Part shown: one piece after another, positions 10,950 to 15,944 of the stretch
Layout of the letters: every line of letters begins with the position of its first letter
Numbering within the stretch: position 1 is the stretch's first letter
Source: Roseithermus sacchariphilus
GTDB lineage: Bacteria; Bacteroidota; Rhodothermia; Rhodothermales; MEBIC09517
Length of the DNA stretch: 64,000 nt
Direction: 5' to 3'
NCBI GenBank assembly: GCA_003285105.1
Contig: CP030158.1
Span: 1,526,501 to 1,590,500 of the forward strand
Notes under the pieces: model-generated
Database searches by the model: none
Seen by the model: only the letters and a program-made list of their open reading frames with translations
Told to the model about the DNA's origin: nothing
Translations under genes and position numbers: made by a program

Positions 10950-13247
10950 GTGCATTCCTTCATGTTGCTCCGCTTACCCGCCGTGTCCCGATTCGCTGCC
11001 GTCGTCCTCGTCCTGTTGCTGGTGGCGCCCCCGGCGCGCGCGCAGGATCTGCCGGAGGCCCTTTCCTCCGAAGCCGCCTCCGACGATCTGCCCTTCATCG
11101 AGCCGCTGGATGCGCGTCCGCTGCGGTCGCTGACGTTCGAGCGCCGCATCCGGCGGACCTGGCCGGGGAGCCCGGCGCCGGTCACCTGGGAGATCCATCC
11201 CGTCTCGGACACGCTCACGGAGGCGGGCCTGGTGCAGCGCATCGCCCGGATCTACGACTACCAGGCGCGCCTCCTGCAGGCCGAGGCGCAGCACGACGTG
11301 CAGGAGGCGGAGGCGCTCCTGGAGCGCGCCATGCAGGACCTGGCGACGCTGCTGAAGCAACCCGGCATCATGGAGCGGCCACGCTTCCGTGAGCTGTATC
11401 GCAGCGTCCTGACCGAATACGAGCGGTACTACGGCCCGTCCGACACGCTCGACATCCAGCGCGGTGACATCTACCCGACGCGCGCCGCGCTCTTCGCTGC
11501 GCTGGAGGGGGACGACGATCCGCTGCTCGAAGAGGCTCTCGTGCCGTCGCTGCAGCCGGTCGAAACCGAGATCCCGATGACGATGCACCGGCTCGTGCGC
11601 CAGAGCATCGCCTACCTGCTGCGGTCCCCGGACAAGCACCTCTACCACTGGCTCGGCCGGGCGGAGACGTACTTCCCGATGATCGAGCAGATCCTGGCCG
11701 AGGAGAAGGCCCCGGACGAGCTCAAGTACCTGGCGATGATCGAAAGCGGGCTGAACCCGCAGGCGCGGAGCTGGGCGCGGGCCGTGGGGATGTGGCAGTT
11801 CATGACCTACACCGGCCGCCTCTACGGCCTGGAGGTCAATGCCTGGGTGGACGAGCGGCGGGACCCCGAGAAGGCCACGCGCGCCGCCGCCCGCCACCTG
11901 CGCGACCTGTACGACACCTTCGGCGACTGGCACCTGGCCATCGCGGCGTACAACTGCGGCGCCGGCAACGTCCGCAAGGCCCAGCGGCGCGCACGCGCAC
12001 GGGGGCTCGGCGCCGACTTCTGGAGCATCTATCCCTACCTGCCCCGCGAGACGCGCAACTACGTCCCCATGTTCATCGCGGCGGCGCTGGTGGCCTCCAA
12101 CCCTGCGGCCTTCAACCTCGACCTCGGGCCCGTCCGGCCCGGCCCGCGCTATGCCTACGAGTACGTGCCCGTGCAGGGCATGATCGCCCTCAGCGAGGTG
12201 GCCCGCCTGGCCGGCACGGACCTTACCACCATCCGCGCCCTGAACCCGGAGCTGCGGCGCGACTACCTGCCGCCCAGCGACGGAGTCTACTACGTCCGCA
12301 TCCCGCTGGGCACGTACGGCCGTTTCGCCGCCGGCTACGCCCAGCTGCCGCCGGAGGCCCGGGCCACGGTGTCGGAGCACCGCGTCCGGCGGGGAGAGAC
12401 GCTGGGCGGCATCGCCCGGAAATACGGCGTCTCCGTGGCCGAACTGCGCCGCGCCAACAACATCCGGGGGAGCCTCATCCGCGTCGGGCAGGATCTCATC
12501 GTGCCGGTGCCGCGCTACGACGGGAGCGCCGCCCTGCCCGTGGACCTGGCCGATGCCCGGCCCATCACGGTCCAGTACGGTCCCCGGGCGATCCGGCCCA
12601 TCGCGGTGTCGAGCCCCTCGCCGCTGCCGATGGCGCCGGGTGGCGCCTCGCCGCCGGTGGTCCGGGCCAGCACGCCGCCGGCGCCGGCCGAGCCGCGCCG
12701 CGAGCCGGCCTCCCGCTCCGCCGAGGCCGAAGACGACGAGCCGGCCACCCGCGTCGTCTACCAGATCCGCCGGGGCGATACGCTGGGCGAGATCGCGCAG
12801 AAGTACCGGGTGTCGGTCTCGGACCTGCGGGCGTGGAACAACCTGCGCGGCAACACCATCCGCGCCGGCCAGCGGCTGACGATCTACCTGGACGGCGAGG
12901 CTCCGGACGAACCGGCCGGCGGCGAGCCGGAGCGTGAGATCACCTACCAGGTGCGCCGGGGGGATACGCTGGGCGAGATCGCGCAGAAGTACCGGGTGTC
13001 GGTCTCGGACCTGCGGGCGTGGAACAACCTGCGCGGCAACACCATCCGCGTCGGCCAGCGGCTGACGATCCGGCCGGGCGGCTCGGCGGAGGCGGAACCC
13101 GCTGCCACCACGTACACCGTGCGCTCGGGCGATTCGCTCTACGTCATCGCCCGCCGCTACGGAGTGACCATCAGCGACCTGAAACGCTGGAACAACCTGC
13201 GCTCGAACCGCCTCATGCCCGGGCAACGGCTGGTCATTCGCCCCTGA
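10950..13247 (+). CDS. MltD-like lytic transglycosylase with four LysM domains
   Basis: 765 residues. A signal peptide ends at PPARAQ (start at 10950; ATG at 10962 would also give a signal). The transglycosylase (SLT) domain spans about residues 215-350. The catalytic Glu is in IESGLNP, followed by GMWQFM and AAYNCGAGNV. Then come four LysM domains, near residues 475-520, 600-650, 660-710 and 715-765, each of the form [RG]-x-G-[DE]-[TS]-L-x-x-I-A. LysM 2 and 3 are almost identical at the DNA level. The enzyme cleaves the MurNAc-GlcNAc bond with 1,6-anhydro formation in the periplasm. A canonical terminator follows 24 bases after the stop. Confidence 0.95.
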   Translation: MHSFMLLRLPAVSRFAAVVLVLLLVAPPARAQDLPEALSSEAASDDLPFIEPLDARPLRSLTFERRIRRTWPGSPAPVTWEIHPVSDTLTEAGLVQRIARIYDYQARLLQAEAQHDVQEAEALLERAMQDLATLLKQPGIMERPRFRELYRSVLTEYERYYGPSDTLDIQRGDIYPTRAALFAALEGDDDPLLEEALVPSLQPVETEIPMTMHRLVRQSIAYLLRSPDKHLYHWLGRAETYFPMIEQILAEEKAPDELKYLAMIESGLNPQARSWARAVGMWQFMTYTGRLYGLEVNAWVDERRDPEKATRAAARHLRDLYDTFGDWHLAIAAYNCGAGNVRKAQRRARARGLGADFWSIYPYLPRETRNYVPMFIAAALVASNPAAFNLDLGPVRPGPRYAYEYVPVQGMIALSEVARLAGTDLTTIRALNPELRRDYLPPSDGVYYVRIPLGTYGRFAAGYAQLPPEARATVSEHRVRRGETLGGIARKYGVSVAELRRANNIRGSLIRVGQDLIVPVPRYDGSAALPVDLADARPITVQYGPRAIRPIAVSSPSPLPMAPGGASPPVVRASTPPAPAEPRREPASRSAEAEDDEPATRVVYQIRRGDTLGEIAQKYRVSVSDLRAWNNLRGNTIRAGQRLTIYLDGEAPDEPAGGEPEREITYQVRRGDTLGEIAQKYRVSVSDLRAWNNLRGNTIRVGQRLTIRPGGSAEAEPAATTYTVRSGDSLYVIARRYGVTISDLKRWNNLRSNRLMPGQRLVIRP
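12777..13070. repeat. 108-bp duplicated LysM coding segment
   Basis: 12777-12884 and 12963-13070 are 107/108 identical (only C at 12865 versus T at 13051), including third codon positions, while the other two LysM copies differ at many bases. This indicates a recent duplication or gene conversion within the transglycosylase gene. Confidence 0.95.
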
Positions 13248-13270: not shown

Positions 13271-13308
13271 AGCGGGCGGCAGCCAACGGGTTGCCGCCCG
13301 CTTTTTTT
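13271..13308 (+). terminator. rho-independent terminator of the transglycosylase gene
   Basis: An 11-bp stem (AGCGGGCGGCA, 13271-13281, pairing with 13292-13302), a 10-base loop and a run of seven T at 13302-13308. It lies 24 bases after the stop codon. It isolates the LysM gene from the helical/GvpF operon downstream. Confidence 0.93.
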
Positions 13309-13553: not shown

Positions 13554-13742
13554 ATGAACGAGCAGGTCGACCGTCTCATCGAAGATCTCAAAGCCCGCCT
13601 CATCGAGGTGTCCGAGGAGGAGATCGTCCAGATCATCCAGGAGTCGCGTGCCGAGGCGCTGGCCGAGGCCAAAGCCATTCTGAAAGAGCGGGTGCTGCAC
13701 GGCATCCTGGAGCATGCCGTGCACCGGCCCACCGCCGCCTGA
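13554..13742 (+). CDS. small helical protein, first gene of the GvpF/L operon
   Basis: 62 residues, nearly all predicted helix, very acidic in the first half. It aligns without gaps over its whole length to the first 60 residues of the next gene's product (shared ARLIE, EEI/DDI, EALAE, LKERV segments). A shorter part (EARAEALA-x-x-K-x-x-LK) is also found at the N-terminus of the GvpF/L protein. No Cys, no membrane segment, no signal. The gene is 27 bases before the next, on the same strand. It is not GvpA: the hydrophobic beta-strands and conserved GvpA core are absent. A scaffold, oligomerisation or assembly-tag role is inference. Confidence 0.82.
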   Translation: MNEQVDRLIEDLKARLIEVSEEEIVQIIQESRAEALAEAKAILKERVLHGILEHAVHRPTAA

Positions 13743-13769
13743 CCCCGCCCCTGTCTACCGGAGTGTTCC

Positions 13770-14525
13770 ATGCCTGATGCCATTGATCCGTTGCTGGAGG
13801 CCCTGCGGGCCCGGCTGATCGAAGCAGCGTCCGACGACATTGCCCGGACGGTGGAAGAGGCCCGCCGAGAAGCCCTGGCCGAGTGCAAGGCGCTGCTGAA
13901 GGAGCGGGTGTTCCGCGGCGTGTTCGAGTATGCCCGGACCGTGCCGGTGACCCCGGCACCCGGCGCGTCCCCGGCCGGTGCCGGCACCCCGACCGCCGGA
14001 GCGGCCTACCGGGCGGCCCCGGCCTACACGGCCCCGCCCTCGTTCCCCACGGCCGTCGACGCGCGGGACGCCGATCCGGCTTCCGATCCGGCTGCCGATC
14101 CGGCTGCCGATCCGGCTGCCGATCCGGCTGCCGAGGGGCCGGCGCCCGACGCCGCTCTGCCGGCCGATACGGTGTTCGAGCCCGTCCGTCCCGACGACCT
14201 CTCGTGGGACGAGGAGCCGGCGTCCGCCGATCAGCCGGAGGAGGCGGTGCTGGAGGAGCCGGAAGCCGCCGAGCCGGAAGCCGCCGAGCCGGAGGCGCAA
14301 GAGGCCGCCGTCCGGGATGAGGCTGCGGCCCTGGCGGACGAGGTGGCGACGCTGGAGGCGCAGGCCCATGCGCTGGAGGCGAGCACGCAGGAGCTGGACG
14401 AGGCCGACCTGGACCCCGAGATCCTCGAAGAGATCGAGGCGATCCGGCAGCAGATCAGCCGGAACGAGCAGTTGCTGGGGCAACTCAAACCGTTCTTCAG
14501 CGGGCAGGAAGGCGGCCATGCCTGA
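13770..14525 (+). CDS. helical protein with repeat linker and C-terminal coiled coil
   Basis: 251 residues in three parts. Residues 1-58 copy the 62-residue protein just upstream. Residues 59-150 are a disordered Pro/Ala/Asp linker with five copies of the D-P-A-[AS] unit, encoded by a 12-bp tandem repeat. Residues 165-245 are an acidic, Ala/Glu/Leu-rich coiled coil ending PFFSGQEGGHA. Its stop overlaps the start of the GvpF/L gene by 8 bases (ATGCCTGA), so translation is probably coupled. The form suggests a spacer that presents the helical module at one end and a coiled-coil partner at the other. No known family is recognised. Confidence 0.85.
   Translation: MPDAIDPLLEALRARLIEAASDDIARTVEEARREALAECKALLKERVFRGVFEYARTVPVTPAPGASPAGAGTPTAGAAYRAAPAYTAPPSFPTAVDARDADPASDPAADPAADPAADPAAEGPAPDAALPADTVFEPVRPDDLSWDEEPASADQPEEAVLEEPEAAEPEAAEPEAQEAAVRDEAAALADEVATLEAQAHALEASTQELDEADLDPEILEEIEAIRQQISRNEQLLGQLKPFFSGQEGGHA
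14071..14130. repeat. 12-bp tandem repeat, five copies
   Basis: Unit CCGATCCGGCTG (first copy ends TT), positions 14071-14082, 14083-14094, 14095-14106, 14107-14118, 14119-14130. It encodes the repeated D-P-A-A linker of the middle gene of the GvpF/L operon and keeps the frame at any copy number. Confidence 0.92.
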
Positions 14526-15696
14526 GTCGACCGACATCTGGACCGCGGCGGACGTCGACCGGCTGCTGCAGGAGGCGCGGGCCGAGGCGCTGGCGGCGTT
14601 GAAGGCGAGCCTCAAGGCGGCGCTGGTGCCGGCCCTGCTCGAACAGGCGCTCCGCGTGCTCTCCGGCGCCGAACAGCCCGGCGCCGAAAGGCGGGGTGCC
14701 GAACAGCCCGGCGCCGAAAGGCGGGGTGCCGAACAGCCCGGCGCCGAACGGCCCGGGGCCGCGCGTCCCACCCGGATGCCGCTGGCCGCCCGGCTGCCGA
14801 TGCCCCCGGCGCCCTCGCCGGTGCCCTCCCCCGACCCCTCGCCGGCCTTCGGGTACTATGTCTACGGGGTGACGGCCAACGTCCCTCGTCCCCGGTTGCC
14901 CCGGTATGGCATGGACCCGCGCTACCCGCTGGAGGTGCTGCCGCACCGGGCCCTGCAGGCGCTGGTCAGCCGGGTGCCGATGGATCGCTTCGGCGAGGCG
15001 GCCTTGCAGCAGCGCCTGGCCGATCCGGCCTGGCTGAACCAGACGCTCCAGATGCACCACCGCATCCTGCAAGCCCTCCAGACGCAGGGGGTGGTCCTGC
15101 CCATGCGGTTCTGCACCCTCTGTCACGACGAGCAGGGCGTCCGCCGCTTCCTCGATGCGCACTACGACGACTTCGTGCAGACCCTGGGGATGCTGGAGGA
15201 CCGGCAGGAGTGGCGGGTGACCGTCACCTGCGACGAACGCCGGCTGCATCGTGCCCTGATCGCCATGAGCGACCGGGCGCAGGCGCTGCGGGCACGGCTG
15301 AAGGATCAGACGGCCCCCACCGCCCGCTTCCTGCGGAAAAAGCTGAACGAGGTGCTCGCCGACGAAGCCGCATCCTTCCGGCAGTCCTGCGCCGAGCAGA
15401 GCCATCGCCTGCTGGCCGAGGTGGCGGAGGACGCGGCCTTCGAGTCCGGCGTGCTTCCGGGCGAGGTCGTGTGGCAGGGGCGCTACCGGGTGCGCAAGAA
15501 CCGGTGGGAGGTCTTCCGCAATCGCCTCGAACTGATGCAGGCCACCTACGGCGACCTCGGCTTCACCTTCGAACTGACCGGCCCCTGGTCGCTGCGGTAC
15601 GATCCGGTCCGGCACGATACGCTCCGGGAGGACGACGGCGGTTTCGTAGTCCCTGCGGCGGCGTCCGCCGAGCCGATCTGGTGGCGAACGCCTTGA
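14518..15696 (+). CDS. GvpF/GvpL-family protein with helical N-terminal extension
   Basis: 392 residues. Residues 115-385 are a gas-vesicle GvpF/GvpL domain: YYVYGV at its start, then LVSRVP-x-x-x-F-G-E, LADPAWL, HHRILQAL, VVLPMRF-x-T, and EWRVTV. Family members are usually 230-280 residues. Here about 110 extra residues precede the domain: a helix related to the two upstream products (QEARAEALAALK), a repeat AEQPGAERRG (30-bp DNA unit) and a Pro-rich linker. The start overlaps the upstream gene by 8 bases. GvpF/L proteins are accessory/minor shell components that bind GvpA; no gvpA, gvpN, gvpK or gvpJ is in this window. The stop codon TGA is also the left flank of a MITE-like palindrome. Confidence 0.92.
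   Translation: MPESTDIWTAADVDRLLQEARAEALAALKASLKAALVPALLEQALRVLSGAEQPGAERRGAEQPGAERRGAEQPGAERPGAARPTRMPLAARLPMPPAPSPVPSPDPSPAFGYYVYGVTANVPRPRLPRYGMDPRYPLEVLPHRALQALVSRVPMDRFGEAALQQRLADPAWLNQTLQMHHRILQALQTQGVVLPMRFCTLCHDEQGVRRFLDAHYDDFVQTLGMLEDRQEWRVTVTCDERRLHRALIAMSDRAQALRARLKDQTAPTARFLRKKLNEVLADEAASFRQSCAEQSHRLLAEVAEDAAFESGVLPGEVVWQGRYRVRKNRWEVFRNRLELMQATYGDLGFTFELTGPWSLRYDPVRHDTLREDDGGFVVPAAASAEPIWWRTP
14671..14760. repeat. 30-bp tandem repeat in the GvpF/L gene
   Basis: Two exact 30-bp copies (14671-14700 and 14701-14730; GAACAGCCCGG...GTGCC) and a diverged third (14731-14760). It codes AEQPGAERRG-like decapeptides in the linker between the helical module and the GvpF/L domain. Confidence 0.93.
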
Positions 15697-15856
15697 GAGG
15701 CTGTAAAAAATCCATATTCGGGCGAGCGCGTCGATCTGGCGGTCCATTCGGGCTTCTTTTCCGCGTCCGTAGCGCTGCTACGAGCGCGAAAAACGCCCCC
15801 GCCTGTCCGCGCCATCTCACCACGCTCGCCCGCGAATCTGAACTTTACACAGCCTC
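15697..15856. mobile_element. 160-bp palindromic MITE-like element
   Basis: Terminal inverted repeats GAGGCTGT (15697-15704) and ACAGCCTC (15849-15856). The two halves remain similar inward (ATTCG, GGCGAGCG, TGGCG) to a central palindrome CGTAGCGCTGCTACG. TGA occurs immediately outside both ends (15694-15696 and 15857-15859), fitting a 3-bp TNA target duplication as made by the IS1031 group of the IS5 family. No open frame of transposase type is inside, so it would be non-autonomous. The left TGA is the stop codon of the GvpF/L gene. IS family is inference. Confidence 0.7.
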
Positions 15857-15944
15857 TGAGTCCGGCCCCCCGGCTTGCATATCTGCCGTGGCACCGGTTG
15901 CTTGCGTGCGGCCTACGTCCGTCCCGCTCCAGCCGCCGCCTGCC

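Follow-up and report, generated by a model that had tools for sequence, protein, structure and literature searches.

A three-gene operon of Roseithermus sacchariphilus, in which one helical module recurs and the last gene carries a domain of the gas-vesicle proteins GvpF and GvpL, raises the question of what such a protein does where the shell protein GvpA appears to be missing. A sequence-only reading of the window, the whole 64,000-nucleotide stretch of DNA that was analysed, had pictured a self-assembling or cargo-scaffold system re-using the GvpF/L fold. Gvps other than GvpA have been studied as parts of gas vesicles, and a search of the literature returned nothing on a GvpL without GvpA, nor on gas vesicles in Rhodothermus.

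A helix module shared by three genes

The three open reading frames lie on the + strand and have the common helix that had been described for them. Gene 1 (13554..13742) encodes the module as a stand-alone protein of 62 residues (module profile E 9.6e-26). Gene 2 (13770..14525, 251 residues) begins with a copy of the module (residues 1-58, 13770..13943, +; E 2.9e-23), continues with a linker rich in Pro, Ala, Asp and Glu, and ends in a coiled coil, of which the segment from residue 214 to 245 (14409..14504, +) is conserved in the related families f2 and f11 and in GvpL proteins of Chloroflexota. Gene 3 (14518..15696, 392 residues) consists of a module helix (residues 10-48, 14545..14661, +), a linker and a GvpL-type GvpL_GvpF domain (residues 112-357, 14851..15588, +). 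The true start of gene 3 is at 14518, and the reported overlap of eight bases between genes 2 and 3 is present at 14518-14525.

The 62-residue protein had been said to align without gaps to the start of the 251-residue protein, and it does so with 29 of 59 residues identical. The BLOSUM62 score was 147, compared with -39 ± 16 for shuffled sequences and 31 for the best of 20,000 shuffles. The shortened copy proposed for the start of gene 3 also held, with 15-16 of 38 residues matching and a score of 65 (shuffles 15.5 ± 7.0, highest 51). In its own genome this copy was found at E 4.5e-13 by the module profile, which includes the sequence itself. Profile comparison with GvpA, J, S, K, G, N, F, R, T and U gave a probability of 3% or less in each case, so that kinship of the module to these proteins was rejected, and no role for such a module in GvpL was found in the papers searched.

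Between the upstream lytic transglycosylase gene mltD (10950-13247) and the three genes lies a strong intrinsic terminator (13271..13302, +; a stem of 14 bp, 11 of them G-C pairs, followed by a run of T), and the triad is therefore probably its own transcription unit. Among plasmids, a match was found for the downstream VOC gene only. Positions 15696-15857 are occupied by a MITE-like element that begins at the gene 3 stop codon and has imperfect terminal inverted repeats of 36 nt; a full copy, 98% identical, is located at G000:C1:271010-271176, and there are partial copies elsewhere. The linkers of genes 2 and 3 owe part of their length to coding minisatellites with 12-bp and 15-bp units, at 14070-14134 and 14663-14767.

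A GvpL domain in a genome without GvpA

Residues 112-357 of gene 3 match PF06386 with an E of 5.2e-48 and 164.6 bits, the gathering cut-off being 23.6. In the AlphaFold model, computed with 37 relatives, most of this domain has a pLDDT above 90, residues 10-48 form one helix (pLDDT about 77-91 by 10-residue block), and the linker, modelled at low confidence, is probably disordered. The best Foldseek matches of the model are crystal structures of GvpF (6l5d, E 5e-11; 4qsg, E 2e-10). By sequence the protein sides with GvpL: it scored 131.9 bits on a GvpL profile as against 54.0 on a GvpF profile, each made from 52 proteins (52 pairs) assigned by gene order. With the same profiles the Rhodothermales members of the group and the one-chain relatives in Chloroflexota were likewise GvpL-like. 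The window domain falls on the GvpL side of a tree with support of 93/91, the deep GvpL branches of that tree being unresolved. The cut-off of the NCBIfam GvpL equivalog NF045778 was missed (54.9 versus 200 bits). Most residues that are invariant in the canonical proteins are retained. The assignment to GvpF/L thus stands and can be narrowed, since these comparisons place the domain with GvpL and not with GvpF.

The genome is a single contig of 4.81 Mb, 99.98% complete, and has one PF06386 gene. Across this complete genome GvpA (PF00741, the Pfam family to which GvpJ also belongs) gave no match above the cut-off, GvpK (PF05121) reached a best E of 0.59, below the cut-off, and GvpN (TIGR02640) gave general AAA-type matches only, the best at 40.9 bits against a cut-off of 266.8; 14 control genomes also yielded only sub-cut-off matches in the GvpN search. 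The lack of gvpA, gvpN and gvpK reported for the 64 kb therefore extends to the whole genome, no gvpA/gvpN cluster was found elsewhere in it, and the view that this is not a normal gas vesicle system is borne out.

PF06386 was found in 56 of 394 genomes of the phylum, 20 of them in the order of the window. The sequence-only reading had asked whether GvpF/L-containing genomes of Rhodothermota also lack gvpA, and this is so for 19 of these 20; GvpA occurs in G305 only. The GvpF/L type of the window is carried by eighteen Rhodothermales genomes, its own included, and none of the 18 has GvpA. In the tree, where f2 is represented by two sequences, the clade of the remaining members of the order includes neither the GvpF/L proteins of G305 nor the single one of G384. 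The G305 locus (L049) is the only one sampled in the order with a GvpA-containing gas-vesicle cluster, and no module was found in the G305 genome. Elsewhere in the phylum, other lone and weakly matching GvpF/L proteins occur at loci L051-L054 (G014, G337, G251 and G172), GvpA not being detected; each has an N-terminal extension, partly helical-looking, and a linker, and they form a separate long-branch group.

These data bear on the idea that gas vesicles are still made, with a shell protein that is undetected or highly diverged. GvpL belongs to gas-vesicle assembly and the module occurs in real gas-vesicle clusters, as described below, which is what this idea would lead one to expect. However, GvpA is strongly conserved, the search that failed here succeeds in G305 and in a further 36 genomes of the phylum, and GvpK and GvpN are absent too, so a hidden gas vesicle is very improbable.

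Relatives with separate modules, repeat arrays and single chains

The relatives within the order are of two kinds. Group A, comprising the window and families f2 and f11, has separate module genes, and the module profile found modules in the window genome, in all seven f2 genomes and in three f11 genomes. In f2 there are two genes, one encoding module, linker and coiled coil and the next module and GvpL; f11 has two stand-alone modules, a module-linker-coiled coil gene and a GvpL with half a module. The gene 2 orthologues of both families keep the three-part layout. Conservation in relatives, on which the sequence-only reading had made its proposal depend, was thus found, modules and a GvpF/L gene being kept as a set in f2 and f11. 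In all four loci compared, the group A site lies between mltD and the succinate dehydrogenase genes sdhB/sdhA. A single window protein used as query gave no matches among the named relatives, and the alignment of all groups was nowhere conserved enough to be used for scanning.

In group B, one long chain (open frames of about 680-1900 residues) has 44-residue helical repeats, 2 to 13 of which were detected, ending in the same GvpL domain. Its members are families f4, f5 and f9 and named metagenome assemblies of Rhodothermales, together with an f56 genome that belongs here by its N-terminal part, and they form one clade at a conserved site other than that of group A. The clade uniting A and B has moderate support (81). 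The spacing was exactly 44 residues in 111 repeat spacings. Pfam matched only PF06386 in these proteins, with no GvpC repeat at E 0.1, and AlphaFold modelled an array at a pLDDT of about 47, too low for the model to be interpreted. The conserved neighbours, named by eye, are pruA, a LolC/E-like permease, a peroxiredoxin, MoaD, MoaE and PurC; they look like housekeeping genes, give no functional hint and point to no client.

The module of group A and the repeat of group B appear to be kin. In a search of 16,831 open reading frames with a profile of the terminal repeat, made from group B alone, the group A modules ranked next after the group B proteins (E 2e-5 to 0.04), and the first unrelated match had an E of 0.86. 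The module and the terminal repeats were aligned by hhalign with a probability of 86% (E 5.6e-6). The profile of the N-cap repeat did not detect group A, and an N-terminal piece of the f56 array matches both the module (E 9.5e-6) and the N-cap profile (E 9.8e-8). By these profile comparisons the module and the terminal repeat of the group B arrays are related.

Such arrays invite the reading that the modules polymerise into a filament, a sheet or the coat of a granule, a self-assembling scaffold or shell that the GvpL domain would chaperone or nucleate. The tandem repetition of the modules, up to at least a dozen per chain, is consistent with it, as is the hydrophobic period of 11/3 residues in the group B repeats, a value that is partly forced by the repeat length of 44. 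Against it, the modules are highly charged with modest hydrophobic moments, and the encapsulin shell gene (PF04454) is absent from the window genome. A polymerising scaffold is on balance a doubtful reading, to be kept in mind.

The relatives in Chloroflexota bear on the origin of the operon. A module-like N-terminus on GvpL was first met in one gas-vesicle locus of Anaerolineae, and among 396 genomes of that class three strong further matches were obtained (L181, L182 and L183); weaker matches were examined and discarded as unrelated repeat proteins. All three clusters contain PF00741 (GvpA-family) proteins, GvpK and other GvpF/L genes, and GvpG was seen in two. The GvpL of these clusters is a single chain of about 450 residues, made up of module, linker, coiled coil and GvpL domain. 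A module profile made from Rhodothermales only finds the three proteins at E 1e-17, 7e-13 and 9e-10; the coiled-coil profile of group A finds L182 (E 5.6e-7) and L181 (E 6e-3), and the third coiled coil is recognisable by eye only. Within GvpL, the window domain is nearest to these three proteins by tree path. One further gene of these clusters encodes a CDC48-type double AAA ATPase (L183 6512-8791, -; a similar open reading frame is at L182 1899-4421), which perhaps stands in for GvpN there.

Because the same module and coiled coil sit on GvpL in real gas-vesicle clusters of Chloroflexota, the genes of the operon derive from a GvpL of the gas-vesicle type. Judged by their sequences, genes 2 and 3 correspond to the two halves of a Chloroflexota-type GvpL, and the operon is a split, GvpA-less GvpL, not a scaffold of other descent that took over the fold; here the sequence-only reading, in which the fold was merely re-used in an unrelated setting, has to be given up. 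Either splitting of the gene in the operon or fusion in Chloroflexota may have occurred.

Proposed function and comparison with known systems

The dN/dS ratios of both group A genes in f2 are mostly 0.06-0.16 and at most 0.25, and for this reason the two genes are considered to be under purifying selection and in use. The same values speak against a decaying, at present functionless remnant of a lost gas-vesicle cluster. That GvpL alone is left, and that a few conserved residues near the C-terminus are missing from the window copy, is what decay might produce. However, several families keep the genes at two stable positions, and the long group B frames remain open with a strict period, so that a remnant is decidedly unlikely. 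Rather, since GvpL is kept under selection in relatives though the shell protein is absent, part of the machinery for building an organelle has probably been put to a different use.

The preferred reading, to which we assign a probability of roughly 0.6, is that the operon is an orphan GvpL assembly hub, without GvpA and divided over three genes, that was exapted to that different use. The GvpL of Halobacterium attracts every other accessory Gvp, and GvpA is bound by GvpF alone (PMC7688916); a truncated GvpA helix is still bound by GvpF (PMC11445434). In the orphan hub, 1) the GvpL of the gas-vesicle system would have been retained without the shell protein, 2) it would have been divided over three short genes, each keeping a copy of the N-terminal helix module, 3) the module and the GvpL domain would join the three proteins in one complex, as the one-chain relatives and the translational overlap suggest, 4) the module helices would pack together or be bound by the GvpL domain, in a manner similar to the gathering of small accessory Gvps by GvpL, and 5) the complex would organise something other than a gas vesicle. 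In group B a single chain, bearing all the helices, would serve the same end. It can also be suggested, tentatively, that a GvpA-free assembly exists in Rhodothermota in which helical modules of 44 residues, whether joined in a giant chain or present as separate subunits, are organised by the GvpL domain into a non-gas cellular structure derived from gas-vesicle machinery.

That GvpL is conserved and selected where no shell protein exists points to a separable activity of the assembly machinery. A system cut to two or three short genes could reveal what GvpL does alone. The one-chain relatives in Chloroflexota predict which of the proteins bind, and they tie the helix module to the GvpL of real gas vesicles.

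Three known systems can be set beside the operon. The structurally known members of the PF06386 family, GvpF of 6l5d and 4qsg, have in common with gene 3 the fold and most of the invariant residues; the window protein differs in its GvpL-like sequence, in its N-terminal helix module and linker, and in being encoded by a genome without the shell protein. GvpC, which is located on the gas-vesicle surface and consists of 33-residue helical repeats, resembles the group B arrays by analogy only, both being tandem helical repeats with a length that is a multiple of 11, whereas the group B repeat has 44 residues. The Chloroflexota GvpL proteins share with the operon the helix module, the coiled coil and the GvpL-type domain, but there these parts are one chain within gas-vesicle clusters, whereas in the window they are separate genes of a genome that has no GvpA.
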